Assembly: GCF_000687475.1 (NCBI RefSeq)
Contig: NC_057322.1
Location: 1,612,001-1,676,000 of the forward strand
DNA length: 64,000 nucleotides
Reading direction: 5' to 3'
DNA from: Ustilaginoidea virens
Lineage: Eukaryota; Ascomycota; Sordariomycetes; Hypocreales; Clavicipitaceae
Each line of letters begins with the position of its first letter. The first letter of the stretch is position 1. Below are positions 27,199-63,202 of the stretch, piece by piece. The notes under the pieces were generated by a model that saw nothing but the letters and a program-made list of their open reading frames with translations, was not told the DNA's origin and made no database searches. The position numbers and the translations under genes are program-made.

Positions 27199-27696
27199 CC
27201 ACGCCCACGCCGGCTCCGACAGCCCATCCGCCCCATTCCTGGCCCTGACCTTGGCCCTGGATCCAACGACATACCAGACCCCGACCCTCATACCCTCTCT
27301 TCGCTCGCTGTCGCCTGCCCGCCGTGTTGCCGTCAAGTCACCACCATCACCATCATCATCACCATCACCATCACCGCCCAGCAGACGAGACGGCACGCCC
27401 GCGCCGACCATCCGCATCCACGCACCACATCATCTGGGCCGAGGCTTGGTTCGTCACGCTGCGTGCCCCAGACGCCGCAACACCCTCTCTCCCGGGGCCT
27501 TTTCTCTCCCTCTCTCTCTCTTTTGACCTTTTCCAACCCCCCCCCCCCCCCCCCCCCCCCACTTCCCAAACTCTTCCCTTTCTTCTGGCTGCTCCAGCCT
27601 CGATTTGCGCGCCATTGCTCGCCCTCGTCCTCGCCGCCGCCGCCGCCGCCACCGTCGCCGCGTCCTGCCTCTCGGTATGGTCACGCCCCGCGAACA

Positions 27697-29074
27697 ATGG
27701 AAGCTGCGGCGAAGACGGTCGAGGTGCTGTCCAAGCGCATCCTACCAGACAAACCACATCATCTGTCGCTCTCTCCCACCCGGCGCTACTGCCAGCTCCC
27801 GGAAGGCGACGACGCCCGCTCCTCTCGCGGCGCCAAACGCCGCTTCGAGGAATGGCACAACACCCGCCTGCAATACTCCACCTTCCTGTCCGAAGCCGAC
27901 CGCGGCACCCTGTTCACCCGCTCCTACTACGACATGCGCGAGGATCCCTCGGAACCCCTGCCTCGCGACGTAGGCGCCCTCTCCAGGGCCGCCAACGCCG
28001 GCGAGAAGAAGAAGCTGTCCCTGAGCGACTACAGGAACAAGAAGACGGGCGCGCTGCTGCCTGCCTCGGCCTCGCCGCCCGAACCAGAAGCCGCGGCCAA
28101 GAGGAAGGAGAGCGAGCGCGCCGCGCCGGCATCCGTCCCCTCGGCCGCGTGCCGCCCGCCCACGCCCACGCCCACGCCCGTCGACGTCGACGGCGGCAAA
28201 ACGCAACACCAAACGCAACACCCGGGCACGACCCGACGAACCGACCCCCCCAACGGCCCCAAGACGCGCGAGCCAGCGTCCCGCTTGTCCGGCGGCGCCA
28301 AGGCGAAACCGAGTCGCGACCGTGGGCCCGCGGCCGCGGAATCGAGGTGCGCAGAGGTTGCGGGAGCCAAGCAAGCGAGCCGCCAAGCTGACACGATCCC
28401 CAGCAGGCTGCCGCCGAAACCTGCCTCGCTGCCGCTCAAGCCGCCGTCGCCCGCGGGCAAGCGACGTGTGCTCGACGCGGATGATGATCGCCCTTCGAAA
28501 CGCTCCAAACCGGACGACCGGCCACAGCTGCTCAATCGCGACGATGCCCACCGGCGTAAGGACGGCAAACTCCCACCATTGTCGCGTGACCGTGACCGTG
28601 ACCGTGACCGTGACCGTGACCGTGATCGTGATCGTGATCGCGATCGCGATCGAGACCGCGGCGGGCCCCCCGCACCACAGCCGCAACCAGCGCCGCCGCC
28701 GTCGTCGTCAAGGGATGACCGAGGACATTCTGCACACTCATTGACCAACGGGAGGGCCAACCTTAAAGGCTCTGCTCCGCCCGGCCGCAGCACACCCCCT
28801 GCTGGACGGCCGCGAGGCGAAGCTGCTGCCAACGGCGTGCGCCCCAGCTCGGTCAACAGCAACCGGGGGACACCCACGAAAACCGACGCCGCCGCCAAGA
28901 CATTCGTACCACCCCTCCTCTCCCCGTTACACCTCAGCTTCGGTGGCCGGGAAAAGCGATCGCGCGCAGAGGACGACGATGCAATGACGAAAAGGGACAA
29001 GAAGAGGCGGGACGACGCGGGCGATGCTGCCGGCGCCGCCGCGACCAAGCCAAAGAGGCTTGCGGATGCGGCGG

Positions 29075-29106
<32 letters not shown>

Positions 29107-29594
29107 ACCACCACCACCACCACCAAGAGGCAAAAATTGCCCGTGGCCATACCGCCGCTGCTGTCGCCCACGCTGCCTCCAGCTGTCGAGGCCGAGCTGA
29201 GACGCCGCAAGAAGTCGTCGTCGGACTCGTCGGACGAGAAGACAAAGGATGGCCGCGACGCCTTGGGCATCAAGAGGCACCCGGCGGACGACGACGACGA
29301 TATCAACAACGACGACGACGGTGGTGGTGTCGGCGGCGGCGCGGAGGAGGTTGCCAAGCGCGTCAGCAAGCTTGGCCACCGCAGGAGACTGATCATGGTG
29401 CTCAGCGTGCCCAAGAGGCTGCGAGCGTCGTTTGCAAAGATTGTTGCGCGGGCGCCGCCGCCGCCGCCGCCGCCACCGCCGCCCTTGCACAGGAAAAACT
29501 CGCAGAGCCAGTCCGAACGGGAGCAGCAAGACCGGAAACCTTGCCGTGCGGCGGGCAGCGACGACGCCTTGCGACCGCAGCCGCAGCCGCAACG

Positions 29595-29630
<36 letters not shown>

Positions 29631-30245
29631 ACAGCAGCAGCAAGCACCGGCGAGGAAGCGGCCGATGATGGGCGCCGCCGAGGCAGGCGGCCCGTCCGAC
29701 GCGACAGCCGCGAAGCGACCGCGCTCGTCCGACGTCGCCGCGGCCGTCGCCGCCCCCGCCAAACTGGGCACGCCGTCGACGCCGTCCAAAAAGACGACGA
29801 CCATGTCGCGCGTCAGCTCGACCAACTCGGCGGCCCACACGCCCGCCGAGCCGGCCACCTCGACGACGCCCTCGGCCTCAGCCACGGACCGCCGCCCCAA
29901 CGGCGGCAGCGACCCCCCCGCGCCCGCAGGCAAGGCGGACAGGCCCGAGGCGCGGCTGATGAAGGAGAAGGAGGACCTCCTCAAGGCCGTGGGCAAGAAG
30001 CTCAAGCACCAGGCCGACCTGAAGCGCAGCCCCGCCGGCCGCGGCGACGCGCGGGCCCCGGCCGACGCCCACGCCCTCAAGCTCGGCTACGTGCTCAGCC
30101 TGGAGAGCATCATCGCCTTCGTCATGGGCTTCCACGCGCAGAACCTCCACCGCGGCATGCTCAGCAAGACGGGCGACCCGACCGGCTGGAACAGCATGTT
30201 CCCGCTCTTCGAGTTCCTGCAGGGCGAGATGCGCCGCGGCAACGC

Positions 30246-30276
<31 letters not shown>

Positions 30277-30654
30277 GACGCCGACGCGCCCGGCTGCCAC
30301 CAGCCCCTGTACGCCATGCTGCTGCTGCTGCACGCCGTCGCGCTCGACGAGATGCTCAAGTGCTACATCCACCTCGACAGCCCCGGCGCGCACGGCGTCA
30401 CCCTCGACGGCCTGGTGCGCAGCGAGCGCCGGAAGCACCGCCTGTGGCTGCAGGTGCGCGAGGCCAACGCCGCCGTGCGCCCGGCCCGCCTGCGCGTCGA
30501 CGTGCAGCCCTGGTCGACCGTCGACGACATTGCCGACGCCTCGCTGCGCGTCCTGCGCGCCTGGTGCGCCGACCAGGGCGTGGACTGGGTCCAGGAGCAG
30601 GCCCTCCGCGACAGCTGGCCCGTCAAGCCGGCGCGGCCGTCGACCGTCCCGTGA
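27697..30654 (+). CDS. Large low-complexity nuclear protein, possibly AF4/Ebp1-like
   Basis: Single exon, 985 residues, first good ATG at 27697. A conserved-looking N terminus (LSLSPTRRYCQLPEGDD; RRFEEWHNTRLQYSTFLSEA; KKLSLSDYRNKKTG) is followed by about 650 residues of low complexity: a (DR)n run near residues 297-320 from a CGTGAC repeat, poly-Thr, poly-Pro and a 17-residue poly-Gln run near 632-650, with many basic patches. The C-terminal ~200 residues are ordered and helical (KKLKHQAD; LGYVLSLESIIAFVMGFHAQNL; LLLLHAVALDEMLKCYIHLD). That layout, and the KKLKHQAD-type entry to a helical domain, recall AF4-family scaffolds and fission yeast Ebp1 of the ELL-EAF elongation complex. This is a weak, unverified resemblance. 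Confidence 0.75.
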
Positions 30655-40556: not shown

Positions 40557-41084
40557 TCATTCCATCTTGATGCGCTTGGCGAGCATCTTGTCGTCGGCGT
40601 CTTCGGCCTTGAACGGCAGCTCGTCGTCCATGTCAGAGTAGTACTCTGGAGCTACTTTGGACGTCTTGGAAGGGGCCTTGCGTTTGCGTGGCGTAGCGCT
40701 CTTGGTGGGAGAGCCGGCGCTTCCAGCGCCGTTGTTGGCTTTCTGGGGGGAGGTCTGATCCCGACGCAGTTTCTGGATGTGCTGCCTGGAAGCACGCAGT
40801 CTGTTAGCGAAAACGCGTGCCAAAAAGACGTGGATGAAAGAAAAGAAACAAGAACGGAAGGGAAGGAGGAAGAAAGAAAACGGGGAAAAGGGAGCAGAGA
40901 ATTGAGTGGTGAGATACGTCACGCCAGAGCACGTCGTCTGGAATCCGTGGGCCTGCATGTGCTCGGTAATCTTGGCAATGGCCTCTTTGTTCGGCTTGGT
41001 CACTTCGATGAAGGCTCTGAGGAGAGCGAAGTGCGAGACGTCGTCCCATTTGTGGGAGGCGGACGAGCGCTGCGTAGAGGCCAT
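40557..41084 (-). CDS. Myb/SANT-like small protein A
   Basis: Two exons, 41084-40918 and 40785-40557; 131 residues. A single Myb/SANT-like domain fills about residues 10-66: W-D-D start (HKWDDVSHFALLRAFIEV), second helix (KEAIAKITEHMQAHGFQTTCSG) and third helix (QHIQKLRRDQ). The intron (GTATCT...TTCCAG, phase 2) falls exactly between helix 2 and helix 3. The tail is basic (ATPRKRKAPSKTSK), then acidic, ending AKRIKME. Fungal proteins with this fold are presumed DNA-binding, but no function is known. Exon 2 has the only acceptor nearby that could also complete the two half-domains upstream at 41377-41528 and 41876-42039. Confidence 0.82.
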   Translation of the reverse strand: MASTQRSSASHKWDDVSHFALLRAFIEVTKPNKEAIAKITEHMQAHGFQTTCSGVTYLTTQFSAPFSPFSFFLLPFRSCFFSFIHVFLARVFANRLRASRQHIQKLRRDQTSPQKANNGAGSAGSPTKSATPRKRKAPSKTSKVAPEYYSDMDDELPFKAEDADDKMLAKRIKME

Positions 41085-41376
41085 GATGGATCAAGTGAGG
41101 ATGAGGTGAGATGAGATCAAGGCTCGAGGTGTCCGGCAGCGCGGAATGCAAAGCAGGGTTTGAAGGAAGAAAGGAATCCTTCACAAACGCAGGTTGTATG
41201 AAGTGAACGCGGGGGCAGTGTGTGAGAAGAAGAAAGGAGAAGGATGAATCGTAAAGCTGCGCAGAAAGATGGATACAAAAAAAAAAAAAAGGTGTAAACA
41301 TTGACAAAGTCGAGCCAAGGTGAAAAGCGGAAAGCCGACCACCAAAGGTTGGAAGAGGAGAAAAGGGTTGCATTAC

Positions 41377-41528
41377 CGAAGCGCGCTCTCGGTAAAGGTG
41401 TACCCTCGATCAGCCAGCTCGGCCATGATGGAGTTCGACTGAGCTGCCGAGAAGCTAACGTGCTGGAAAATGGCCATGAGTACGTCCTGATGGACTGTCT
41501 CGTCCCATCTCATGTGATTTCGGGTCAT
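41377..41528 (-). CDS. Myb-like half-domain exon B2 (alternative first exon?)
   Basis: An ATG at 41528 opens MTRNHMRWDETVHQDVLM, then helix 2 (NSIMAELADRGYTFTESALR), and the exon ends in a phase 2 donor CG|GTAATG at 41377. This is the first two-thirds of a Myb/SANT-like domain, cut at the same point and in the same phase as gene A. No helix-3 exon (QHxxxLRR) follows before gene A, so the simplest completion is splicing to 40785, giving ALRQHIQKLRRDQ and the gene A tail. Otherwise it could be an internal exon following B1 (through a rare GAG acceptor at 41509-41511) or a broken gene. RNA data are needed to choose. Confidence 0.6.
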
Positions 41529-41875
41529 TTCGAAGGACAGAAGTGCGGACAGGCGTTGCAAAACAAGGACAGGACGAAGAGACGGACAAGTTGCGACAGG
41601 ATCGAGGGGGTTTGTGACAAGCGAAGAGACGGAGGGATGATTTGCGTTGGGGGAGAGGAATTTAAGAATCGGTGCCCAAGAACGAGATGGGTTGGGGCAT
41701 AGGCAGGTGAGCCGGAAGTGAGACGGCTCGCGACCGGGTGGCATGTCGAGCAGGAGGGAGCTGAGGATCTCTTCCTTTGCGGTAAAGGAGGAGAAGAAGA
41801 GGAAGAAGAAGAGGAAGGAGAAGGAGGAAAATAAAAATACTAGGATACGCAGCAGGAAAAGGAGAAGTGGCTTAC

Positions 41876-42039
41876 CGTATCCCCTCCCACGTAACCTTGT
41901 GATGCATCTCATCCATGCGCGAAGTGATGGCGTTGCGAACCTCAGCCGTGTGTGCGCCCGTTTCGGCGCCGGCTTCGAAAAAGGCCACGACGAGGTCGTG
42001 CAGAAACGCGGCATCGGCCCAATGTCCTCCTGGTGCCAT
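41876..42039 (-). CDS. Myb-like half-domain exon B1 (alternative first exon?)
   Basis: ATG at 42039 starts MAPGGHWADAAFLHDLVVAF, followed by HTAEVRNAITSRMDEM and HKVTWEGIR, ending in a phase 2 donor CG|GTAAGC at 41876. It is again a Myb/SANT-like domain without its third helix. Scanning to 41528 shows no QHxxxLRR exon. A phase 2 join to 40785 would give GIRQHIQKLRRDQ, while a join to B2 at 41508 would give GIRWDETVHQ. A CT-rich leader lies upstream, as expected for a first exon with its own promoter. Confidence 0.6.
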
Positions 42040-42587
42040 GGCAGAAATGAGAGTGGTGCAAGTTGAGGATGAACAAGGAGCAAGTGGAAAGCCCGTGCTC
42101 GTGGGTATTCCTTGATTGATGCGAACGAGGAGAAACGATGGAGAGGATGGAGACGATGAAAGCCACGGAAGCAATGGAAACATATGAGTTGGGGCAGGAC
42201 GCTCAGTTCCGATGCTTGGAGGGGAGCGCGTGAGAGAAGACGTCGGCATCGGGAGAGCTGGTGTGGGTGAAGGCCGGGTGAGAAGAGAGCCCAGGCAGAC
42301 CAGGCGGTGACGGCGATGTGAGCATTTGGTGAGAGCGCCTAGTCGATTCTATCGGATGCAGCCGGCGCATCTGTGCTCAACCACTCGCTATTCGATATCA
42401 TGTCATCGTACACGGTCCTTTGCTTTATTTAGCACCTTGTCCCCAACCTTCGCATGATATATCCAACGGCGGGATTTTCCACACAAAGAAGAATATAAAC
42501 AAAGGAAAAAAAAAGGGGGGGGGATAGAAAGATACAGAGAAAAAAAGGAAACGCGAAAAAGAGGAAAAGAGGAAAAGTCCCCCCTGA
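42040..42587. other. Intergenic between Myb-like units C and B1
   Basis: About 0.55 kb. It would contain the B1 promoter and the 3' UTR of gene C. No coding exon seen. Confidence 0.5.
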
Positions 42588-43783
42588 TCATGCCTCATAA
42601 TCAAACCTTGATATTCCAAGTTAGAGCCATAGGGTTCACAGTTTGCAACCGGCAAGGAGAAGGGAGAGCATACTCTGACGAGTACCGGTGTGGACCTGCA
42701 GCGCCGTTATCTGCAGCCAACGCCAAGACTGCTTCGTCATCGAGTGGCGGCGACTGCTCGTCTTCGATTTGCACTTGCTGCGCCTCTATCCGCTGGCGCT
42801 TGATGGGAGGTTCGTCGTCCTCGCCGTCGGCGTCCTCATCAGCTTCCACCACTTCGCTCGTGCCATCTACGCGAGGTGCGGGTGCAACGGCCATGTCTGC
42901 CGCCGAGGGCACGGCGTCGAAACCATTGGCCCCGTCCGGCTTGCCCGGCTGCTCTGAAAGCATGCGCAGACCGCCCTGCGCTTGTGAAGCTTGCAACTCG
43001 TGGGCAGCAGTTGGCGGGGTGGACACGGCGCTGGGGTTTGGTCCGGCGCCCGTACTCGTCACCCGACCTGGCGGCAGTACAGGCTGAGCACCAGAAGAAT
43101 CCTGCTTCCTGGGACGGCCTCTGCCGGGCCCCGGCCGACGAGTGATGGGGTTCATGGTCGGGTCCGCCTGCCGAGCGGTGAGGGGGGCGGTGCTGTCTGC
43201 GTCGGCTTTGTTCTGCGCTCTGCGAAGACCCTGGAAGTGTTGACTATGGGGGAGACGTGTCAATGGGGAGACGCCTTTGATGGTGAGCAGAAGAATAGAG
43301 ATGGAGAGAAAGAGAGAAAGAGAGATGAAGAAGACGAGGACGACCAGGCAACAGACATTCAGGCAACATGCACAACCTCACTTGAAGTCGACAAAACGAC
43401 GTGGGGCAACAAGGACGCCATGATGTTGTTATTGTTTTTGCCGTTGCTGTTTAAGAAGGAGGAGGAGGAGGAGGAGGAGGAGATGGGTGATGGTGATTCA
43501 ATTGGAGAGTTGAGCGAAACGGGCCGCGGAAGCAATGCGCAAGATACTAAGCGGCTATTCATGTGTCGTCATCCAGCCCGGATAACTGGATAACATGCGC
43601 AGAAACCAACTATCGAAAGACATACCGGCATCCCTCATTGGTAAAACCGTATCCCAGGCTTCTCATCTGGTTACCAATGGTTGTCCATTCTGCACCACTG
43701 ATGACACCAATGTTCTTAACAGACAAGATGGTGAAGAAGAGGTCCTTGTCGGCACGGTCATTCCAGTTCTTGAGGTTCATCAT
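42588..43783 (-). CDS. Myb/SANT-like protein C
   Basis: Exon 1 43783-43626, exon 2 from 43243. The Myb-like domain is NWNDRADKDLFFTILSVKNI, then EWTTIGNQMRSLGYGF, then RQHFQGLRRAQNK, with a phase 2 intron at the helix 2/3 border just as in gene A. After an AT-hook-like GRGRPRK (about residue 90) the protein is disordered, with a DEPPIKRQRIE patch. At the 3' end I favour a further intron (donor at about 42690, CTCTAAC branch, CAAG acceptor) giving HRFDYEA and a stop at 42588-42590; without it the frame stops at 42601. The reading frame is open upstream to an ATG at 43966, so a 61-residue longer N terminus is possible. Confidence 0.75.
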
Positions 43784-44706
43784 GGGGGTGGGGACGGTGT
43801 AAGTCGGGACGGAGCAGCTGGGCAAAGCCAAGGAGGTGGTGCTGGTCCCGAGCCTGCGTTGCGGATAGGCCGTGTTAACGTGGCTGCCTGGTGCAGAGAG
43901 AAAATTGATAGTGTGATAAATGTCAGGCGGATTCGGGACAAGACTGGATGATTGGGGTTGCGCCATGACGTTTCCATGGCCCGTGCGTCGACGGCACTGG
44001 GGCCGACACACCGTTACGCGGATCGGCACTGAACAACATTATTCCGCGGCCCAGCGATCCCGTCTGCACCCTCTGAAGGGTGACTGAAAAAGGGAGACCT
44101 GCGAAAACACGAAGAAGGAAAAAAAAAAAAAAAAAAACCCCTCGGCATGAACGGATGACAGACGGTGACGCGGGTTTTTTGCCACTTTGAGCGCTTTGAA
44201 ATGGGCGCCTGCGTCTGTCGGGGGAAAACATGTCACTTGCTTCAGGTTGAGATGCGCAGACTTAGCCGGGGTTGGCACGGCGTTTACCCGGACTATCCCT
44301 GGCCAGCGGTGCCGCTAGTCAGGTCGCCCATGCCACTTATTCCTCTCGGCCAACAAGGGTGGGGGGAGCCTGACTAGAGACTACAATTCCTGCCTAGCTG
44401 CTTCATTAGACCGCTCACGTGAGTTCGTGGCAACCTGGCGAAAAGCTAGTTTCACAGGTCCCCGCACCAGGTCGCGCCCGTCGCGTCTCCCAACCACTTC
44501 ACCCCATCCCCTCCACGACGACAATCGCAGATTTGCAGCCGTTGCATTTCCATGGAGACGGAAAAAATCGGACCCAATGGCTATAGCGAAGCTTGTTTTC
44601 TCTGAACCAAATTTCCTCGGAGTTTTTGGGACTTTTGGGTGTCGAAATGTCAAAAATTCGCATCTTGTCGACTGTCATGAATGCCCCTCCTTTTTTTTTT
44701 TGGTTC

Positions 44707-44747
<41 letters not shown>

Positions 44748-46458
44748 AGAAAGGACAACGCCGTCGTTGCCTCAAAGGTATGATGACAGGGCCCTTGTGC
44801 TCGCATCCCCCCCTTTTTCCAGACAAATGCGGATCTGTTTGGCCCAAGTGGGAAGCTTGGCGGAACTCCGTGCTCGTTGGCAACTTGTTCATCTCGCATT
44901 GAGGCTCTGTGACCAAGTCTTCTCCCGTTTCTCCCCTAATGGTGAGCAGCTTCCCACGCGAACTCTTCGACTTGGCAAATACAAACAAGAACATGTCCCT
45001 ACGATGTCCTTTTGCAGGGAGATATTGGAACCGTGGCCGAATCTTCATCATGGGCAAGACTCTGGGTGGGCGTCAAATGCGCAGGCCTAGCGTAGCGCAC
45101 CACGGAGTCGAATGGGGCACGGAATGAATGAACTGCAGCGCCATCAATAATCAGACCATACACCCCTTTGGTTGTCTGTTTTTCTTTTTCTTTTTCTTTT
45201 CTTTTCTTATTTTCCTTTTCTTTCTTTGCTCGCCAGTGATGAGTCACACCATGTTTCAGTGGTCCATGCCGGCAAACGCTATCCCTGTCGTTTAAATGAT
45301 TTTCCCTTTCCATTATCGCGAATGCCATGGTCAACTAAATTGTTCAACTGTGTTACGAGGCTTGCGACACGGCCTGCTGGCACAATGAATGCAAAGCTCG
45401 CTGTCGGCCAGAAGAGCCAGCCGTTGACGTTGGTGGGGCTGGCTGACTGTTTGACGCTTTAGGCTTTGGACAGCCCACTAGCTCGCCATCGCATCCCCCG
45501 GACCGGGTGGCGACCCCCCCCCCCCCCATGCTGCCATGGAGCATGCCTCAACATGCCATGACCCATCCTCGACTAAACCCAGAATCTCTAGCCCCATTCG
45601 TGTTTGCCCATCGCATCACCTGCATGAGAACTTGGCCCTGCCGTCCAGAAAGGGACGCAGCACCAGGCATCCAACGACTAATCGCGATGTTCTCAACGCC
45701 GATTCGATGGAGTCTTCGTGGTTCCTGGATCCTCACACCCCTCCCCCCCCCCCCCCCCCCAACCCCGGGCACCTTGTTTTGCCTTGCCTCGCCTCGCCAT
45801 AAATATGGCCCATGTACCAGAACGATGGCACTTGACGAAGCCTGAGATTGATGCCTTTTAAGCCCAAGCACATCCCCAGGCCGCGACATCTTTTTTTTCT
45901 CCCTCTATTCGTTCAATCATTGACTCTCCTGCAAAGTCTTTCGTGCTCCCTTCGTCATCTCTTGCGTGGACCATGACATGACAGCCTCTTGAAAGCAACC
46001 ACAGCTTCTTTCAACTCCGACACCATTGCCGTTTACCACCGCCACTTCGCCTCGTCATTTCAGCATTCGCTCACAGAAACTCGTTTCGTACCTTTCTATT
46101 GATTTGTATCGGTGCTTTCTCTCGGCCAGTCCAACCAAGACACGCGGACCAAGCTTCATGCCCGCCTAGTCGCCCACCCGCTTTCACCCCCCGAATAAAA
46201 ACAGCCTCCTCACAAGTGACTGCATGCTGCCTCATCTTCCAGGTTGGACCAGAGCTGCCCAGGTGATCGATCAGTCGCCTGGATATTCACTCAAGGCGGA
46301 CTAGACCGATTCCTACACTTGACTTTGATCTTCATTTAAAGACCTTGCTTCTTCCTCTACCTCTCTCTCCCTCGTCAGCCCTGCTTGCTTGTCGTTGGCA
46401 ACCATTCGTCACATCGCACCCGTGATAAAGGGCTTTCTCTTCCAATTACTTGCTCATC
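43784..46458. other. 2.7-kb divergent region inside the Myb-like cluster
   Basis: Separates the minus-strand Myb-like units (A-C) from the plus-strand ones (D-H). It contains TCACGTGA at about 44414-44421, a 33-nt poly-A (44712-44744), an ATAAATATGG TATA-like site near 45798 and an AATAAAAA site near 46193. No coding exon seen. Confidence 0.5.
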
Positions 46459-47268
46459 ATGTCTCCCAACGGCGATAACGCCATGGCTCGCTTTCTTTTT
46501 GCCATTCTGAAGCAAAAAAATCTCAAGGATGTCCGTCACCTCTTCCCGGATTTCCCATCATAGCGCCGTGGCGTGCTGACGGTCAGTGAACAGATTGATT
46601 GGAACCAAGTCGCGCAGGATCCCGTCTTGCTGCAGCCAATTTCCAACGGACACGCTGCTAGAATGAGATATTCGCGCTTCCGAGCTACCGTCACGGGACA
46701 CGAACCTCAACGGCGGAATCGCCACGGTGAAAAGGATCGAGTTTCCAAGTCGTCTTCAAGGAAGGAAGACTCGTCCAAGAAGGGCGGCATCATCAAGTCG
46801 GAATCTGGCGTGAGCCTCGCATCTTTGACTCAGGTTTGTCCCTTGCTCTTCCATTGAGCCAAGTACGACTAGAGGCACTTCATTGACAAAAACCGCCGAC
46901 CCTAGTTCTCACCCGCCTTTCATTCACCCCCTTACTCGACAGATTACGAGGACTTGAAAACCCGATTCCTCACACCCTGTAGTGATGACATGACCCTAGC
47001 CATGTCAGTCAACCCTGCTGCCCTCGAGGACCGGCAGCACCAAAAGTCGGGTGCATACTCATCGACAATGGACTGCCACTCTGACTTGTTCACCGACCCT
47101 GGCAGTCTCACACACTCTCCGGCCTTTCCCGCCTTTGATGCCGCTTATGAACTGGACGGGTTCAGTGCTCATCCTGCCGAGCTGAATGGTCCAAATCTGT
47201 CAGATCTCAGCGGTACCCGGTGTGCGCCAGAGTGGAACGAGGACTTCCATGACCCTCAGCTGTTTTGA
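46459..47268 (+). CDS. Myb-like protein D
   Basis: Three exons: 46459-46530, 46594-46833 and 46906-47268; 224 residues. The Myb-like domain begins ARFLFAILKQKNLKD, continues IDWNQVAQ and ends NGHAARMRYSRFRATV. It belongs to the second type in this cluster (F-L/I start, DWN core, R-x-R-F third helix). Compared with its neighbours it has about seven extra residues (DPVLLQP) between helices 2 and 3. The tail lacks the acidic run of E-G and is Ser/Pro/Asp-rich (SPAFHSPPYSTDYEDL). The acceptor at 46904-46905 (CCTAG) was chosen because it keeps the frame open; the later CGACAG does not. Confidence 0.8.
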
Positions 47269-47925
47269 TACCCCGCGGAGCGAGACTTCCCAGAATATTA
47301 TCATGTGTCTTGGAAATTTGATTGCGAGGAGAAGTGGAACGGCATACGGTAGATCCTTCTCGCCGTGCTAATGATTTGACGATGAGGTGATGAAAAGGGC
47401 ACATTGAATCTTTTTTCTCTACAAGGGACAGGCGTTTGGGCAGATTTCTTGTTACAAATTGTATATTCGTCGCTGAGCTGCGTTTTCAAATAAAAAAGTC
47501 TGCGTTCAAGGATTTCTTCTCAGGGGGGCTCAAGCATTTTCTCCTGTATATTGCTGGCAAACGGCGCGGCTTCAAGGAGGGTATGGCACTGGCCATTTTG
47601 CCGATCAAGTACAACATGTTGATAACTCACATTCACATCACTTTGCCCCGGCTTGTCGCTCAGCGCTCTCTTATCACGACAACACCTGCCAAAATCTCAC
47701 CTTTTCCCTTTTGTTTCGTTTCGTTTCGTTTCCTTTCTTTCCGTTTCTGTTCCTTTTCATTCCCCCAACCGACACCCCATATCAAAACCACTGCTTACCA
47801 CCAAGGACTTTTCTTCCATCCACACCATCTACAGCTAACCATTTCCCCTTTGCACTTGCCGATAAGGTCTGTCGGCCATGCCACGACATGATTTCCTCCC
47901 CAAAACTGACATTTTCTAGCTCATC
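47269..47925. other. Intergenic between Myb-like D and E
   Basis: 657 bp; TTTCG/TTCCT-rich promoter-like stretch at 47700-47760 before gene E. No coding exon. Confidence 0.5.
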
Positions 47926-48486
47926 ATGGCCGAGACAACCCCCAAGAAGAAGGAACCCACCGCCTCGGAAGCCATGTTCTTCTTTGCAATTGTCAAGCAT
48001 ACCCGGAACAAGGCAGACATTGACTGGAACTCCGTGGCCATGGAACAAGGGTTCAAGAACGCCGAGGTAGCCAAGGTATGCGTGCTTTTCTGTGCTTGTA
48101 CCCGTGGGGGCACCCTGTGCTGATAGCTGCAGGTCCGCTTCGGCCAAGTCAAGCGCAAGCTGGGAATCTCTACAACCGACTCCCCTGGCCAGAGCGCGGC
48201 ACCACGAACCCCAACCAAGGTGAGGAGCGCGGCGGGTACGCCCACCAAGGTGTCCAAGGCTGCGGGACGAGTTGGAGGAAAAGGGAAGGGGAAGGGGAAG
48301 GGGAAGAAGGGGGCTGTAAAGAAGGAAGAAAGCGAGGAGGAGGACGATGATAATGGCGACGACGACGACGTTGATGACTCCGTTTCGGCGGTAAAGATGG
48401 AGGAGGATGGTGATGAGGATGAGGATGAGGACGATGCGGAGCTGCATAGGGAGGTCAAGCAGTTTCTGGAAGAGGATCCTTATTGA
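47926..48486 (+). CDS. Myb-like protein E
   Basis: Two exons, 47926-48075 and 48133-48486; 167 residues. The Myb-like domain covers about residues 15-62: EAMFFFAIVKHTRNKADIDW, NSVAMEQGFKNAEVAK, VRFGQVKRKLG. The phase 0 intron again lies directly before the third helix. Then comes a basic stretch with two TPTKV motifs and a (GK)n run, and a strongly acidic tail (EEEDDDNGDDDD). This basic-then-acidic layout recalls chromatin proteins. Function unknown. Confidence 0.85.
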
Positions 48487-49141
48487 AGGCTGGAGCTAGG
48501 GTCTTATAGCGGCGTGGGTTATCACGAGGCGCGAGTGGTATTCTGGCACGGCATTGGCAGCTTAGCGCTGCATCTCGTGTGAAAGTGGGCTGGGGCTACT
48601 GCCTGCATATGTGCCTCTTGCTAAAGGCACGGACAATACAAACGCGGATAAGACATGCTTGCCTGGGCGGAAGCACCAGGAGCATGGTGAGGCTTTTTGC
48701 GAGACCCTTCGTCCGGTGTATAAGCCCTTGGTCCAGAAACCCCAGGAAGAGGTGGCGAGTGTGCAATGGTCCGGAACATCCAGAGCCAGCTGGCAAGCCC
48801 TCAGTGACAGAGCAGCTGGCCGGCAACCCTGTCTCGGAAATTTACTTCAACTCACATCTCGCTGACATTCGCACCTCACGCCCGCCTCGCCCACCGGCCC
48901 TCTCGCCAGCGCGACGTTTCTCTCTCTACGCAGGCAAATCTGCTTCTTCCCCCTTCCTTTCCCCCTTCCTCCCCCCTACATCCAATTCCCTTTCCACCGT
49001 CTTCACCACGCTTCTCCCATCCGTTTCATAGGACTCATCTCGCGCAAGAAACCCATGCAGAAAGGGCTTGCTGCCAAACTCCATCGCCACATCGACACCA
49101 TACCCAAGGATTAAAGGCCTCGCAGAGAACCGAAAAGAAGG
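48487..49141. other. Intergenic between Myb-like E and F
   Basis: 655 bp with a CT-rich leader (48890-49020) before gene F. No coding exon. Confidence 0.5.
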
Positions 49142-49531
49142 ATGCCTCGCAAAGCAAACGTCACGGTCGCGACTCCCACACCCGGCGAAACCGACTCCTC
49201 CCCCGGCCTGACCGACAACGAGATGCGCTTCATCAAGGCCGTCTTTGACAACATGACGCAGAGGCCCGACGCGAACTGGGAGAGCGTGGCTGCCGACCTG
49301 GGGTTGAAGGACGCCAAGTGCGCCAAGGAACGCTTCCGGCAGATGTCTGTCCGGCACGGCTGGCGCGAACAGGCGGGCGGAGGCGCTAGTCCTCGCAAGG
49401 GGGGAGCAACCGGGGCGTCAGGCGAGGGTAGAGTCAAGAAGGTCCCGCGGACGCCTACCAAGAAGACGGCCAAGTCGGCCGCCGCGGTGGAGAAGAGCGA
49501 CGAGGAGGAGGACCAGGCCGCGGCGGAGTGA
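49142..49531 (+). CDS. Myb-like protein F
   Basis: Intronless, 129 residues. The Myb-like domain lies about residues 24-74: TDNEMRFIKAVFDNMTQRPD, ANWESVAADLGLKDAKCA, KERFRQMSVRHGW. The tail is basic (KKVPRTPTKKTAKSAAA) and then acidic (EKSDEEEDQAAAE). It shares the TPTKK motif and the tail layout with gene E, but lacks the helix-3 intron that E and G have. Confidence 0.83.
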   Translation: MPRKANVTVATPTPGETDSSPGLTDNEMRFIKAVFDNMTQRPDANWESVAADLGLKDAKCAKERFRQMSVRHGWREQAGGGASPRKGGATGASGEGRVKKVPRTPTKKTAKSAAAVEKSDEEEDQAAAE

Positions 49532-50179
49532 GCCTGGGCTCTGCAGAAGGCGGTGGATATGGCATGGGATTGAGGGCGGGACGACGGATGATGATGATCT
49601 TTGCCCAGAGAATGAAGCAAGGGGCCAAGTCTACGGGTCAAGTCGCAGAAAGCGCTCCCCGGGCTGATGGATGTACGAATGGGATTTATGTTTTGCGGAC
49701 GGGCTCCGGAGAGGAACGCCTACTACATTCAAAAAGATGATTTCAAAACTACAGATTGCTCACCTGGGGTTGTGTCAGTGACTGGAGGTTCGAACAAGCG
49801 TAGATGGCTGTTGCACCAAACGAAGTGACGCCACACCCGCCGACGCCACACCCGCCACCCCATGTGCGGCTCTACAGGGGCAACCTGCACTTGTGACGGA
49901 TGGACTGGCCAATCGGCTGCGGCCCTCGTGGTGCGGCTGCAACATCACTTTGCTCTCACTTACACCTGGTTGCCAGGCCACCAGGCCACCCTGCCCTTGC
50001 AACTGCAAACGAGTCACTCGCTTCACTATCAGATGCATAAGCTTCCTTTACTTCGCTCCTCGTCTTTTTGCACGACGGAACTTATCCCCAAACAAGCCGA
50101 AGCTCGCCACGTTTTCCTTAAAACACTGCTCTGCAGCAGAATTACCTTTCGAGAAACCACCCTTGAGACGTGAACCAAT
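49532..50179. other. Intergenic between Myb-like F and G
   Basis: 648 bp, with a short CGCCACACC direct repeat near 49830-49860. No coding exon. Confidence 0.5.
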
Positions 50180-50816
50180 ATGCCTTCCACGCAAGAACCG
50201 ACTGAACAGGTCAGGTTCCTCGTCTCTTGTATTGGACACACTAACAATGGACGCGTAAGCATGCCTCTTTAGCGTTGCAAGCGGAGAAAAACATGGACGT
50301 GACGGACGCTGACTCCTTTCTAGCCCGACTTTGCGGCCGTTGCTGAAGAGCTGGGCATTGTTTCCAAAGCCGCAGCGTACGACGCATCCTGCTCTATCTT
50401 AATCCCTCTAGCTAATCCTTGGAATCTAGCCAGAAGCGGTACGAGCGCATGCTCAAAGCCCATGGTGTCAGCACCGCCAGGTCGCCTGCCAAGGAGGCTG
50501 AGGAGCTTCCCAGCCCCGACACAACTCCCGTGAAGCGCAAGGCTGCGGCTCCCCGGGCTGCCTCCGGCTCTGCCAAGAAGCCCAGGGCTGGCAAAGCCAA
50601 GGTGAAGAAGCACGAGTCTGATGACGAGCCCCTTGACACCAAGGACGATGTCAAGAAGGCGGAGGATTCCGACTCTGGCCTTTCCGGTGAGATCCCGCCC
50701 CTGGTGAATGCCCCGCGACCGTGTCATTGCTCTTGCTGACTTTTTTTCTCCTTCTTTTCTTTTCCAACGAACCATGATGAGAAGATGTCCCTTTGATTGA
50801 TTGTTCAGAGATTTGA
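50180..50816 (+). CDS. Myb-like protein G
   Basis: Four exons: 50180-50254, 50324-50376, 50430-50686 and 50782-50816; 139 residues. The Myb-like domain is EQVRFLVSCIGHTNNGR, PDFAAVAEELGIVSKAAA, QKRYERMLKAHG; introns split it after helix 1 and, in phase 2, right before helix 3. A basic middle (VKRKAAAPRAASGSAKKPRA) is followed by an acidic part. The last intron (GTGAGA...ATGAG) is inferred: it gives GLSEDVPLIDCSEI, whereas reading through gives a stop at 50739. The GAG acceptor is uncommon, so the C terminus is the least certain part. Confidence 0.78.
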
Positions 50817-51824
50817 ACGCAGTGAAACGGGAATAAGAAAAACGGAGAAAACGAATGGATGAAAGAAACTCTGCGCCATTTAGGATTGCTTTTGGCTGGT
50901 GATGCGTAGTCAGTATAAGTGCCAATCGGCCACAGCGCGTTGCCAGGATACTAGACTAAACTTGTTGCTGACGTTCTTAAAGAGTGCGGTTAGGACCCAA
51001 GATGGGACACATTTGCATGGCGAACAGGATCTGCTTTTTTTTCTTTTCTTTTTCACAATGGACTGCTTTATATGTATTTTTGTGGGCTTGTGAATGGCTT
51101 GGGCCGCAAAAAGGATATATAGCTTAAGATTACAGGAATCGATAGCCACTTGATGGTCCAACTTCTGCTCTCGAATACCTGTGCCAATTCTTCGAGTGAA
51201 CCCGAGGTTGCTGTCGCTGCTCTTGAAACCCAGCCTTGACGCAGCCTTTGGAGGAATACAACCTTGCCTTTGGCGCGCAGCTGTTTGTATCGAAAGTTTT
51301 GCTTGCAGGAAAGCTTATGGCGCGCGGCGCGGCTTCGCATGCGGGCGTGCAGAATACTAAGCGAGCCTCGCCAGCTGTTGCAGCCGCCACCTCGACCAGA
51401 CGATGCCACAGACGACCAAATCTTTTACTCTGCATCAATTCGCCCGATTCCTTTCCCTCGGCCGAGTTTCTTCAACGGCGAGATAAACGCTCTTAAAAAA
51501 AAAGTCTGTTTTGCAGCTCTCGAGGGCACCTGTTTTTTTTTTTTTTTTTGTTTCTCATTTTTGGCTTTCTCACAAACAGTTCCCTCTTACTCACTTCGCG
51601 CAATCCACCAATTTGTTACGCCCACGCTTTTCTTGGCCCCCCCCCAGAGTCTCATCTCATTGTCTTGGAGCTAGATTCACTCATCTTTCCCAATTAACCT
51701 CACTCACTTCTCACTTTGCGACGTCGGTCTCACCATCATCCAAACGAAATTGCTCCCTGACAAACGGCCTCGTCTGGTTTTCTTAGAAGCTCGTTTCTCC
51801 TTCTCCCTCTTCTTGCTGGTTGAC
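50817..51824. other. Intergenic between Myb-like G and H
   Basis: 1.0 kb; holds copy 2 of the dispersed repeat (51033-51103) and a 21-T run at about 51530-51550. The right end is a CT-rich leader. No coding exon. Confidence 0.5.
51033..51103 (+). repeat. Dispersed ~65-bp repeat, copy 2
   Basis: Near-identical to 16107-16174 in the same orientation; the right 33 nt (51071-51103) match perfectly. It sits between Myb-like genes G and H. Confidence 0.7.
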
Positions 51825-53250
51825 ATGGGCTCAATCTCGTCCAAGAAGCCGGCTGCCAAGAAAGAACGCTCCCCTGCAAAGGAGCGCAGATCTCGGTCGA
51901 GGACCAACAATGCAGCGGCCTCACTTCACTCGTCTAGCAATACTAGCTCTCCGTCCAAGAAGAGCACGCCTCGGACTGCTAGGTACTCGCATCGCCTTCC
52001 CACAGACCAGCAGCGGAAGGGAAATGGACGTGTTCCTGGCCGAAGTTTGATCATGTGGAACCGTGAGTCCTTTTTTTGCTCCCTCCAGTTCCCCCCAATG
52101 GCCAGCTCGTTTGCGCTCACTCGGCCTGACAAATCGAGCAACAGGTCCTCGAATGGCTGAGAAACTGCTCCTCCACATCCAGTATGAGTGTAGTCGATAC
52201 AAGGTACAGTTACCATGGGACGCCATTGCTCATCGTCTTCACCCTGGCTCCTCCGGCCAAGCTGTCTGTCAGCACATCAGTCGACTTCGGAGAGAACTCG
52301 TAGCAGAAGGACATCTCGTCCCGCCTTTGGTGCCGAGGTCGGCCCCCCATACCGCCCCCGAGATCCGGGGCTACATTCGCCAGGACATGGAGGGCAGTGA
52401 CATAGAGACCACCCGTCCTGTGACGTTTGACGAGAAAATCGACGACCCCAAGTTCAGCCTGCCAGATTCGATAAACCTCCGCGAGGAGGAAAGCGTGCCT
52501 TACGAAGATGCTGATCGATTTGAACGATCCCCTTCGCCGTCTGTTTCGGTGGAGGAGTCTGTTTCGATGGAGGAACCTGTTTCGGCGGAGGAACCTGTTT
52601 CGGCGGATGAACCTGTTTCGATGGGGCAACCCATTCCGATGGAGGACTGGCAGTTCCCATCGCCTACGCCCCTTCCGCTAGCCCTGCCAACAGTTTCCGG
52701 TGGTGTTATGATAGCTCACGAGATGCTCCCGCCACGATTCCCGGCCTTGGCCGATGAAAATGTAAGTGGATTTTGGGCGTTGCCAAACGAGATACGAAGC
52801 TCAACAGTTTAGGAACAAAACTCGAAATACGACACTAGCTCTGCTTCTACGCTGGAGGCGACACAACCCCTGTTTGAAGATGAAGCATCGCCCAACGAGT
52901 CCTTTCAAAGCACTGAAATCAGGCCCGAAGAGGAACTTGCTGCCAAAGAACGGCATCTGCTGGGCGCTGGCCAGCGCGAACCCACGTTTGGCTACACGCT
53001 GGCTGCCGCTGGACCTTGGCCGCAGCACATCCTCTACCCTACCTTTGCTCCGTCAAATTTGTCCTCTGCTCCTGCTGTTGCCTTTCACGAGCACGAATAT
53101 TTCCGGTCGCCCTTCTCCATGCCCACGGCTGCTCATTACGCTTCATACCGTTCAATGGGTTCGGCCGCTTTGGGAGCAGAGGCACTTACTCAACCTTTAT
53201 CCAGACCCAAAATCGAGGATCCGAGAAATCGAGATCCCGGTGAGCCGTAG
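51825..53250 (+). CDS. Myb/SANT-like protein H
   Basis: The largest member of the cluster: exons 51825-52062, 52145-52761 and 52813-53250; 430 residues. A basic Ser-rich N terminus (SSKKPAAKKERSPAKERRSR) precedes the Myb-like domain at about residues 83-140: AEKLLLHIQYECSRYKVQLPW, DAIAHRLHPGSSGQAVC, QHISRLRRELVAEGH. Here helix 3 is not split by an intron. Downstream is a tandem run of 5-7-residue units around VSMEEP, VSAEEP and VSADEP (near 243-270), then Pro/Ala/Tyr-rich sequence that could activate transcription. Helix 3 places it with A-C rather than D-G. Confidence 0.82.
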
Positions 53251-59373: not shown

Positions 59374-59968
59374 GGTGAGTTGGGGGATGGGCGGCAATTG
59401 GGGGGGGGGTATCGTGAAGGATGGAGGAAGGCCTGGCGGGGTGGGGCGTAGGACGGGAGCAGGTGAGGAGTCGCGCGGGAGGCAGCTAGCTCCTCCCAAG
59501 CAGTCAGGCGAGGCAGCGGGATTTTTTTCTAGGCTCCAGATAGAATGAGCATCGCGAAAGGAGCCAGAGATGACCGAGAAGAACAGAAAGGAGGGCAAAG
59601 CACGCAAAGGGCGTGTCGTCACCGCGAATGGCCTCAGAACTCGGACGTGTGGCTCCAAGGCAGCCAGCCAAGGCAGCCAGCCAAGGCAGCCAGCCAGCCC
59701 GTGGCTGAGGCCTGGTGGCTGAGCCGTCCCCACCCCGATACGAGGTTTTGCCGGGCCGGCATCGCTCCTTATCAAGCTTGGCCGAAAAAAAAAGAAAAAA
59801 GGATTGGGTGGGGCAGCGACAGAAATCGCCATTTCTTTCTTGCAGAGCCCATCTCTGGTCCGTCCTGCACACGACCGACATTATTTTTTCTTTTTTTTTT
59901 TTCCCCAGCAATCCTTCTTGCCAGGCGTCGGTGGCAGGCGCAGCAGCAGCAAGAAGAATCAAAAGAAA
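59374..59968. promoter_or_regulatory. Divergent promoter get5/nop2
   Basis: 595 bp between diverging starts, with three 13-bp CAAGGCAGCCAGC units (59655-59699). No coding exon. Confidence 0.5.
59655..59699. repeat. 13-bp tandem CAAGGCAGCCAGC
   Basis: Three head-to-tail copies in the get5/nop2 promoter. Confidence 0.8.
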
Positions 59969-62041
59969 ATGGGACCTGGGAGACGCATGGGCAGGAAGCA
60001 GGGCGCCCCCGAGCCCCTGTCCGAGGAGCACTTTGCCAAGCTGAAGCGCAAGGCCGGCCTGCCCGTCGAGCCGGCCTCGGAAGCCCACGACCACAAGAGG
60101 CGGAGGACGGGGAAGAAGGCACAGGCCAAGAGCAAGACCGGGGCCGCCGCCGGAAAGACAAAGACGTCGTCGGGCGCCGGCGCACGGGATGCCGCGCCCA
60201 ACGGCAGGCCGAAGGAGAAGAAGAAGAAGAAGCCGGAGCCGGAGCCGAAGCCGAAAGCTACCAGGGCCAGCAGGGTGACGCCGCCCGCAGAGGACCAAGA
60301 CGGCCACGACGACCACGACGGCTCCGACGGCTCCGACGGCTCCGACCTGCACGTCGGCAAACTGTCCGACCTGGACGGCGGCGAGGGACCCGCGCCCTCG
60401 CTGGGCGACGACTTCCTGGGCTCGGATGATTCCGGCTCCGAGCCGTCCGTGTTCGACTCCGAAGCCGAGGACGACGACGACGGCGTTGCCAAGCCCGTCT
60501 TTTCCGAGGACGAGGACGAGTCCGGCGCCGAGGAGAAGCTGACGGCCGCCAACATCGAGGGCCTGTCGCGCCGGCTGGACCGCCGACTGGCAGAGGAGGC
60601 GGCCGCCAGCGCGGCGGAGCTGGCCGAGAGCGCGATGCAGACCAACATCCAGGGCGACCGGCCGCGCGTGGTGGACGGCGGCGAGGGCGAGGGCGAGGGC
60701 GACGGCGGTGCGGGCGCGGCGCTCGCGCCGGACCTCCAGCTGCTGCGCTCCCGCATCGCCGAAAACGTCCGCGTGCTCGACGACTTTGCCAGCCTCGCCG
60801 AGGCCGGGCGCTCGCGGTCCGAGTACACGGCCCAGCTGCTGCGCGACGTGTGCGCCTACTACGGCTACTCGGCCTTTTTGGCCGAGAAGCTGCTGGGCCT
60901 GTTCCCGCCGCGCGAGGCGCTCGCCTTCTTCGAGGCCAACGAGTCGGCGCGCCCCGTCGTCATCCGCACAAACACGCTGCGCACGCACCGCCGCGACCTG
61001 GCCCAGGCCCTCATCAACCGCGGCGTCACGCTCGAGCCCGTCGGCAAGTGGTCCAAGGTCGGCCTGCAGGTCTTTGAGAGCAGCGTGCCGCTCGGCGCCA
61101 CCCCGGAGTACCTGGCCGGCCACTACATCCTGCAGGCGGCGTCGTCCTTCCTGCCGTGCATGGCGCTCGACCCGCGCGAGGGCGAGCGCGTGCTCGACAT
61201 GGCCGCCGCGCCCGGCGGCAAGACGACGTACCTGGCCGCCATGATGCGCAACACGGGCGTCGTGGTGGCCAACGACCCGAGCCGCGCGCGCGCCAAGGGC
61301 CTCATCGGCAACGTGCACCGCCTGGGCGCGCGCAACGTCGTCGTGTGCGCCTACGACGCGCGCGAGTTCCCCCGCCCCATGGGCGGCTTCGACCGCGTCC
61401 TGCTCGACGCCCCGTGCTCCGGCACCGGCGTCATCGCAAAGGACCCCAGCGTCAAGACCAACAAGACGGAGCGCGACTTCCTGCAGCTGCCCCACGCCCA
61501 GAAGCAGCTGCTCCTCGCGGCCATCGACTCGGCCAACCACGCCTCCCGGACGGGCGGCTACGTCGTCTACTCGACCTGCTCCGTCACCGTCGAGGAGAAC
61601 GAGCAGGTGGTGCAGTACGCCCTGTCGCGCCGGCCCAACGTCAAGCTCGTCGACACGGGGCTCACCTTTGGCAAGGAGGGCTTCACCAGCTTCATGGGCA
61701 AGAAGTTTGACCCCTCGCTGCGCCTCACCCGGCGGTACTACCCGCACGCCTACAACGTCGACGGCTTCTACGTCGCCAAGTTTAAGAAGACGGGGCCCAC
61801 GGCTGCCGGTGCCGGTGCCGGTGCCGGTGCTGCTCCGGGCCGAGAGCAAGGGCAGGACGGCGGCGTCGTGGACAGGACCCCCATTTCCGAGGAGCGAGAC
61901 GCCGCCGCCGCCGCCGCGGCCGACGACGACGACTTTGGCGGCTTCGACGACGCCGAGGACAAGGCGTACATTGAAAGGGGCAGGAGGAACGCCATGCGCA
62001 GGAGGGGTCTCGACCCGAGGAGTCAGGCGGCCAAGAGGTAG
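59969..62041 (+). CDS. nop2: Nop2, 25S rRNA cytosine-C5 methyltransferase
   Basis: Nucleolar 60S assembly factor and SAM-dependent m5C methyltransferase (NSUN1 family). Intronless, 690 residues. The first ~230 residues are Lys- and acid-rich (KEKKKKKPEPEPKPK; FDSEAEDDDDG). The conserved core starts near LLRSRIAENVRVLDDFASLAE; motifs are RTNTLRTHRRDLAQALINRG, the SAM loop LDMAAAPGGKTTYLAA (about 408), DAPCSGTGVIAKDPSVK (about 481, release Cys) and STCSVTVEENE (about 534, catalytic Cys). Both cysteines are present. The C terminus is basic. Start 59969 is the first ATG that gives the usual MGPGRRMGRKQG. Confidence 0.96.
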   Translation: MGPGRRMGRKQGAPEPLSEEHFAKLKRKAGLPVEPASEAHDHKRRRTGKKAQAKSKTGAAAGKTKTSSGAGARDAAPNGRPKEKKKKKPEPEPKPKATRASRVTPPAEDQDGHDDHDGSDGSDGSDLHVGKLSDLDGGEGPAPSLGDDFLGSDDSGSEPSVFDSEAEDDDDGVAKPVFSEDEDESGAEEKLTAANIEGLSRRLDRRLAEEAAASAAELAESAMQTNIQGDRPRVVDGGEGEGEGDGGAGAALAPDLQLLRSRIAENVRVLDDFASLAEAGRSRSEYTAQLLRDVCAYYGYSAFLAEKLLGLFPPREALAFFEANESARPVVIRTNTLRTHRRDLAQALINRGVTLEPVGKWSKVGLQVFESSVPLGATPEYLAGHYILQAASSFLPCMALDPREGERVLDMAAAPGGKTTYLAAMMRNTGVVVANDPSRARAKGLIGNVHRLGARNVVVCAYDAREFPRPMGGFDRVLLDAPCSGTGVIAKDPSVKTNKTERDFLQLPHAQKQLLLAAIDSANHASRTGGYVVYSTCSVTVEENEQVVQYALSRRPNVKLVDTGLTFGKEGFTSFMGKKFDPSLRLTRRYYPHAYNVDGFYVAKFKKTGPTAAGAGAGAGAAPGREQGQDGGVVDRTPISEERDAAAAAAADDDDFGGFDDAEDKAYIERGRRNAMRRRGLDPRSQAAKR

Positions 62042-63202
62042 GTGGATGGGACGGACGCGTGGAAAATCGGCGCGGTGGCCAAGGCCAAACGGGTTGAGAA
62101 GCGGGATACCAGGTGGTGCGGATGCCGTTGAAGAAAGGCGAGGTGCGAGCATGTAAGCGTAGCAAAAGACAATGGCTGGAAGAACGGCATGGCGCTGTTG
62201 TGGCCTGTGAGCCGAGAATCAAGCAAGTCGAATCAAGAATTACTGGACAAAAGACACGGCGCAGTCTTTTACACGTCGCAAGGAGACAACTGATATTCCA
62301 TAATCATGATGTAAGAAGCAGAAATCAATATTAAATCAAGAAATAACTGGACAAAAGACGCGCAGTCCTGTACACGTCGCAAGGAGACAACTGATGTTCC
62401 ATGATCATAATGTAAGAAGCAGAAACCAGCATCAAATCAAGAAATAACTGGACAAAAGACGCGCAGTCCTGTACTCGTCGCAAAGAGAGGAGTATGTAAT
62501 GTAGCAGAGAGACCATGTTTCCACCATGCAGGCAGAATCAATCAACCGTCATCAACAAGCAGCCGCAACGGCACGCGCACCCGCAGACAACTCACAGCGA
62601 ACGATACGATACGATACATGCATACATTCCCCGGATCAGCTACAATCGAGCCAATGGCCCATACAAAGGAAAAAAAAGTCGACTCGAGTGTTCGCAGCAC
62701 CCTCTTCCCGCCGTTGCCCGCCAAACCAGAACCCCCGCGCAAGTTGTTCGTCAAGCATCATGTCCGTCATCTCAAGTCGTGAACAAAGGGAAAAAAAAAG
62801 AAAAAAAAAAAAAAAAGACGTGCTCCTGTTACCTCCAGCAGCGACCGCGGCCGGAGCGGTGCGCAAGCGCTGCTTGTCTTGCTGTCCGTGACGCTCCGGT
62901 GCTCCCCTTTTTGTCCCAAGTCCCCCCCGCCATCTTTGCCATGCCGAAGATATAAAAAAAAAAAAAAGAAAAGGAAATAAAACGACTCAACAAGAAGATG
63001 AAATACAAATGAGATAAAAATGACAAAATGAGAGACACAGCATCAGCAGGCGGCTCGCCACACTCACAACAAACCTCTGATCCGTGCAAAACGTCCGCGC
63101 ATGGCTCGAAATCATCGTCCAGGTGTGGTCGGTCGAGACGGTCAACTCACCACATGACACACACACGCAACACACGACCCCGACCCCGAGCCCGACCCCA
63201 GC
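62042..63202. other. Convergent 3' region nop2/byr4
   Basis: About 1.2 kb containing the tandem repeat at 62231-62485 and several poly-A tracts. No coding exon seen. Confidence 0.5.
62231..62485. repeat. ~102-bp tandem repeat, 2.5 copies
   Basis: Copies start at 62231, 62334 and 62435 (the last is partial). Units share AATCAAGAA, ACTGGACAAAAGACG, TCGCAAGGAGACAACTGAT and ATGTAAGAAGCAGAAA, and differ by scattered substitutions. It lies between the ends of nop2 and byr4. Confidence 0.85.

Follow-up and report, generated by a model that had tools for sequence, protein, structure and literature searches.

A putative variable/constant gene with three alternative first exons in a Myb-like cluster of Ustilaginoidea virens

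Small Myb-like proteins each need three helices to complete their domain, and a cluster of such units in the ascomycete rice fungus Ustilaginoidea virens raises the question of how two of them, designated B1 and B2, could do so when each encodes only half a domain. The cluster lies between ufd1 and hsp60 in a window of 64,000 nucleotides (nt; assembly GCF_000687475.1, contig NC_057322.1, positions 1,612,001 to 1,676,000 of the forward strand; all coordinates below are positions in this window). A sequence-only reading of this DNA had counted nine Myb-like half or full domains (A, B1, B2, and C to H) and treated them as nine independent proteins. It is instead probable that positions 40557-42039 on the minus strand form one variable/constant gene, in which the alternative first exons B1, B2 and A share a single exon 2.

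Anatomy of the array

The three first exons are tandem homologues on the minus strand, B1 at 41876..42039, B2 at 41377..41528 and A at 40918..41084, and each carries its own ATG and ends in a phase-2 donor (CG/GTAAGC, CG/GTAATG and AC/GTATCT, respectively, the slash marking the exon end). Together with the first exon of the neighboring gene C, all of them break at the same position of the domain, the split codon being Thr in A and Arg in the other three. The part upstream of this break corresponds to helices 1 and 2 and the first turn of helix 3, while exon 2 (40557..40785, minus strand) encodes most of helix 3, beginning QHIQKLRR, and a basic/acidic tail. The intron of isoform A spans 40786..40917 on the same strand; a B2 isoform would remove 40786-41376 and a B1 isoform 40786-41875. 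The donors of B1 and B2 read CGG TAA (41872-41877 and 41373-41378, respectively), so that an intron retained at either would end the protein at once and leave a bare two-helix fragment.

An acceptor that could complete the domain was sought among 68 AG sites downstream of the B1 donor, 51 downstream of that of B2 and 37 downstream of that of A. Only the acceptor at 40785 encodes the QHxQxLRR consensus, with a score of 41 that is maximal by construction, the consensus having been derived from A's exon 2; the next best sites score 12 (B1), 12 (B2) and 8 (A), and C's own exon 2, the positive control, scores 30. When exon 2, B1 and B2 were used as single queries against the whole genome (37.16 Mb, 8 contigs), each found itself only and no second copy, although a much diverged copy could escape these searches. 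A longer query, the Epichloe bromicola chain P0121 (B1, B2, A, exon 2), gave four matches in the whole genome, all of them in the array and one of them exon 2. B1 and B2 are thus without an exon 2 of their own, because the only downstream acceptor that completes them is that of A's exon 2 and no other genomic copy was found. The acceptor scan, the genome searches and the pairs of gene models described below agree on a single shared constant exon.

The position of the junction within the fold was taken from AlphaFold models. Exon 2 joined to B1 (P0191) is predicted to form helices at residues 10-26, 34-44 and 51-79, the last end at low confidence, with pLDDT block means of 83-96 over residues 11-60; joined to A (P0001), it forms helices at residues 15-29, 33-45 and 52-67, with block means of 86-94 over the same residues. 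Both models thus have three helices, the third of them basic, and both have disordered tails. With the exon junction at residue 55 in the former and 56 in the latter, soon after helix 3 begins, the shared exon would supply most of that helix and the tail.

Homologous gene models and the age of the exon types

Homologous gene models were dissected with hidden Markov models (HMMs) of the modules, and a junction was called direct where the gap was at most 3 residues. The sample comprises 219 distinct listed homologues, drawn from 120 of the 173 matches of one search and all 119 of a second, with 20 in both; the second search scored only the 7985 candidates sharing most words. C is joined to its exon 2 in 80 of these models and stands alone in 13. 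A single first exon precedes exon 2 in a further set (A in 50, B2 in 9 and B1 in 3), and multi-module chains ending in exon 2 take the forms B2-A (12), B1-B2-A (6), B1-B2 (4), B1-A (3) and B1-B1-B2-A (1). The other 38 consist of exon 2 alone (14), A alone (13), B1-B2 (2), C with its exon 2 followed by two B1 modules (1) and eight models in which A, or a longer chain, is separated from exon 2 by a gap. By this count, A joins exon 2 directly in 72 models, B2 in 13 (including the catalogue open reading frame (ORF) P0006) and B1 in 3. Where a listed chain has at least two A/B modules but lacks C, as in 30 cases, the order is always B1, B2, A, exon 2.

Several of these models join different first exons to what appears to be the same exon 2. 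In U. virens, the predicted junction of B1 to exon 2 at 40785 is present in UV8b_08121 (P0002), whose exon 2 is identical at 75/75 residues to that of UVI_02001150, where it follows A, with the first exons alike at only 9/45. The F. falciforme models NW754_006852 (B1 with exon 2) and NCS54_00527300 (B2 with exon 2) agree at 89/90 residues of exon 2 and at 7/45 of the first exons, and the C. fioriniae models COL5a_005242 (B1 with exon 2) and COL516b_005997 (B1-B2 with exon 2) at 109/109 and 10/44, respectively. Among models named Trichoderma viride, exon 2 of P0171, preceded by B2, matches that of P0107 and P0153, both preceded by A, at 54/101 and 93/103 residues; because exon 2 is less alike here, the strains are perhaps different species, and those bearing the name may not be one species. 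In P0006, an intron-free ORF on a 2907-nt contig labelled 'lgn', B2 runs straight into exon 2, and this ORF may represent a transcript.

The exon types appear to be old. In a FastTree analysis of full-length modules, from which identical rows had been dropped after C had been cut to the first 12 of its 93, pure splits are formed by B1 (16/16, support 0.98), B2 (34/34, 0.97), A (81/81, 0.91) and C (10/10, 0.999), a result that speaks of consistency rather than discovery, as the labels came from HMMs seeded on the same groups. The B1 and B2 sets include Hypocreales and Colletotrichum, and B1 also Verticillium longisporum, such that the exon types form separate splits spanning Hypocreales and Glomerellales. 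Between U. virens and Epichloe, like exons are 53-64% identical (B1 54%, B2 64%, A 53%) and unlike exons 16-26%.

The number of modules is not the same everywhere. In Colletotrichum truncatum CTRU02_203757 (P0126), B2, A and exon 2 are preceded by a pair of B1-type modules, and a single gene model of Verticillium longisporum, HYQ44_000027 (P0098), places two B1-like modules after C and its exon 2. The latter suggests that the V. longisporum array is differently sized, and from these models duplication of first exons seems to be how the array grows.

The cluster between ufd1 and hsp60

The flanks of the cluster were assigned by Pfam to ufd1 (UFD1_N1, E 8.2e-30; UFD1_N2, E 2.6e-33) and hsp60 (Cpn60_TCP1, E 2.2e-44), and the interval between them consists of two diverging arms, of which the minus-strand one holds A, B2, B1 and C and the plus-strand one D to H. 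The nine Myb-like coding units described earlier are real and flanked as stated, but they make up seven genes, since B1, B2 and A have one exon 2 among them; the 'half domains' B1 and B2 are halves because three first exons share one second exon, and the claim of nine independent proteins is not supported. On the minus strand, C has its first exon, encoding the same domain half, at 43626..43783 (phase-2 donor CG/GTATGT) and its own exon 2, beginning QHFQGLRR and continuing into a tail, at 42601..43243. The plus-strand units are D (46459..47268; exons 46459-46530, 46594-46833 and 46906-47268), E (47926..48486; exons 47926-48075 and 48133-48486), the intronless F (49142..49531), G (50180..51199; exons 50180-50254, 50324-50376, 50430-50703 and 51146-51199) and H (51825..53250; exons 51825-52062, 52145-52761 and 52813-53250), the last carrying a related domain with the motif QHISRLRR. 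G is longer than first read, as its fourth exon gives the C-terminus annotated in UVI_02001090, while the open frame continuing to 50739 reads into an intron. Identical annotated proteins exist for three of the spliced models: UVI_02001150 for A with exon 2 (P0001; 100% over 131 residues), UV8b_08123 for D and UV8b_08124 for E. No other gene type was noticed in the ORF list of the interval, of which not every ORF was scanned with Pfam, and a tRNA scan with bacterial settings found none.

Domain searches were run on spliced models; Pfam searches of bare ORFs missed most domains because introns cut them. At the curated cut-off of 27 bits, D (39.8 bits), E (28.0 bits) and G (80.6 bits) belong to PF22980 (Myb_DNA-bind_8), and F falls below it (19.5 bits, E 5.9e-4). 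A, C, H, and the products of B1 and B2 with exon 2 have no PF22980 match up to E 10 and reach no Pfam family at its cut-off. They resemble the PF22980 family in having a single short domain and a basic/acidic tail, as do its members D, E and G and the near member F, but stand outside it as kin by pairwise profile comparison only. This comparison relates the C/H type to the A type (E 7.1e-13), H alone to the A type (E 2.8e-5, probability 74%) and the A type to PF22980 (E 6.3e-8, in an alignment that extends into the low-complexity tail). By these profiles, the nine units are one domain superfamily, in agreement with the single family first proposed. An ancestral intron common to the array and the PF22980 genes was considered and rejected, as the introns of E and G lie near the same place in helix 3 but, by eye, 1 and about 3 nt off.

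The Myb label of the A/B type is a judgment and is not secure. The winged-helix family HTH_12 (PF08461) matches 8/36 A/B-type proteins, with a best E of 7.5e-4, against 5/36 for Myb_DNA-bind_4 (PF13837), the plant trihelix family of GT-1 type. All inspected PF08461 matches lie below the cut-off of 21.4 bits, including that of B2 with exon 2 (20.1 bits, residues 31-63), which covers about helices 2 and 3 only, and the inspected PF13837 scores are below the 27-bit cut-off.

Local duplication with divergence, also part of the sequence-only reading, is supported by the profile kinship and by a six-frame search of the U. virens genome, in which the five best of 6 PF22980 matches lie in this cluster. 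Searches of the same genome with C and H found only their own loci, and PF00249 gave 18 matches, 0 of them in the window. The related single-domain genes, C and D to H, probably arose by local duplication. Conservation of the cluster, which the earlier reading had named as support for itself, was assessed in 33 assemblies represented among the listed, tagged matches (120 of 498 for PF22980) by an A/B-array protein as well as by a PF22980 protein, and in 23/33 of them the two locus tags are at most 10 apart. Of the ten assemblies outside this limit, five are from Claviceps, on short contigs, and four carry JGI-style protein numbers, whose sequence can differ from the order of the genes; the last is Beauveria thailandica, with tags 20 apart. 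In Trichoderma cornu-damae, C (Trco_000249) lies between 000247 and 000251. On the evidence of these tags, clustering is conserved in Hypocreales.

Elsewhere in the window, long ORFs overlap on opposite strands at 27463-30654 and 59504-62152, in GC-rich DNA (up to about 0.70 per 2 kb); each region perhaps holds one low-complexity coding gene and its shadow ORF.

Competing readings, mechanism and known systems

B1, B2 and A could also be read as serial coding exons of one long multi-domain protein, as in the 30/219 listed chains that place at least two A/B modules in series (e.g., P0121, P0123, and P0132), besides P0098 with C. Within U. virens, splicing of B1 to B2 could use either of two in-frame acceptors, one a GAG and one a CAG without a branch point by the pattern used, and UVI_02001140 (P0083) makes this join, with no exon 2. 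For fusion of B1 or B2 to A, however, there are 0 in-frame acceptors (phase 2, at least 40 nt from the donor); an in-frame stop lies 9 nt before A's ATG, and the 60 nt upstream contain no YAG acceptor. All modules except the last would moreover be without most of helix 3, and the linkers in fused gene models vary widely. Such a serial protein is improbable, and we judge as equally improbable that A is the sole working first exon, with B1 and B2 remnants of genes whose second exons were lost. The predominance of A among direct junctions (72, against 13 and 3, of the 219 listed) would fit such a history, but B1 and B2 keep an ATG, an open frame and a phase-2 donor, are as well kept as A relative to Epichloe, persist in both orders as separate splits and serve as the annotated first exon in some named genomes. 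A set of nine small genes, each independent and together forming a coordinated regulatory or chromatin module, would account for the conserved clustering and for the membership of one superfamily by profile, yet B1 and B2 cannot complete the domain alone and have no exon 2 of their own, downstream or found elsewhere in the genome, and this explanation is the least credible of those considered.

The variable/constant gene has evidence to answer as well. Besides the serial chains and the built-in advantage of exon 2 in the acceptor scan, almost every junction comes from a predicted gene model; the model UV8b_08121 begins 70 residues before B1's ATG and does not confirm that start codon, and P0006 may owe its form to intron loss. 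The genome searches are insensitive to divergence, having missed C's exon 2 and one first exon from another. The branch-point pattern, which in the B1, B2 and A intervals occurs only as GCTAAC at 40808, before the shared exon 2, also missed C's own intron and hence lends weak support. Beyond Epichloe, pairwise identities separate the exon types less clearly, the B1 of Colletotrichum musicola (P0141) being 28% like the B1 of U. virens and 36% like its A. Finally, neither AlphaFold model was matched with confidence to a solved structure by Foldseek or VIA, for which we suspect the disordered tails and small size, and the insecure Myb label must be added to these points.

Under the variable/constant reading, B1, B2 and A would each have, beside its start codon, presumably its own promoter, and one of the three starts would be transcribed. 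The donor of the chosen first exon would then be spliced, one at a time, to the single acceptor of exon 2, giving a single-domain Myb-like factor with a three-helix domain and a common tail. Promoter choice would swap the front of the domain and leave unchanged the tail and the greater part of the helix presumed to contact DNA; the isoforms would differ in helices 1 and 2 and the first turn of helix 3, and may share a DNA preference and differ in their partners. We lean, at slightly better than even, toward the broader proposal of a fungal variable/constant locus older than the parting of Hypocreales and Glomerellales, in which promoter choice swaps helix 1-2 surfaces before a shared recognition helix and tail, with similar DNA and different partners, and which grew by first-exon duplication.

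Alternative promoters are generally held to add little to protein diversity in fungi, and an exon array kept across two orders would, if confirmed, be a clear counter-example. The locus has been modelled in many ways (fused, halved, or with one start chosen), and the proposed structure would put right a family of gene models that are in doubt. It would also offer a natural experiment on the role of helices 1 and 2 in a small Myb-like domain with helix 3 nearly constant. A literature search by titles and abstract openings, with subscription papers largely outside its coverage, found no fungal array of this kind and no account of this cluster, and a search on the PF22980 name or accession with related terms found no paper. 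In Verticillium dahliae, alternative first exons are described as sporadic (PMC4035056). The 1R MYB-like proteins of Aspergillus nidulans resemble the products proposed here in having one Myb repeat of ∼50 residues and three helices, a single repeat being present in 14/21 MYB-like proteins of that species; exon sharing or a cluster is not mentioned in the sections seen (PMC11199622).

Alternative first-exon arrays are known from animals. The closest parallels to the proposed arrangement of B1, B2, A and exon 2 are the vertebrate loci for clustered protocadherins and UGT1A, where homologous variable first exons lie in tandem and each is spliced to a common set of constant exons. The fungal array differs from these in having three first exons within less than 1.5 kb in all, in a split that falls inside a helix of a small domain and not between larger parts of a protein, and in a promoter choice that is here presumed. 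The likeness lies in the plan, in which tandem variable first exons would each be joined to one shared constant part.

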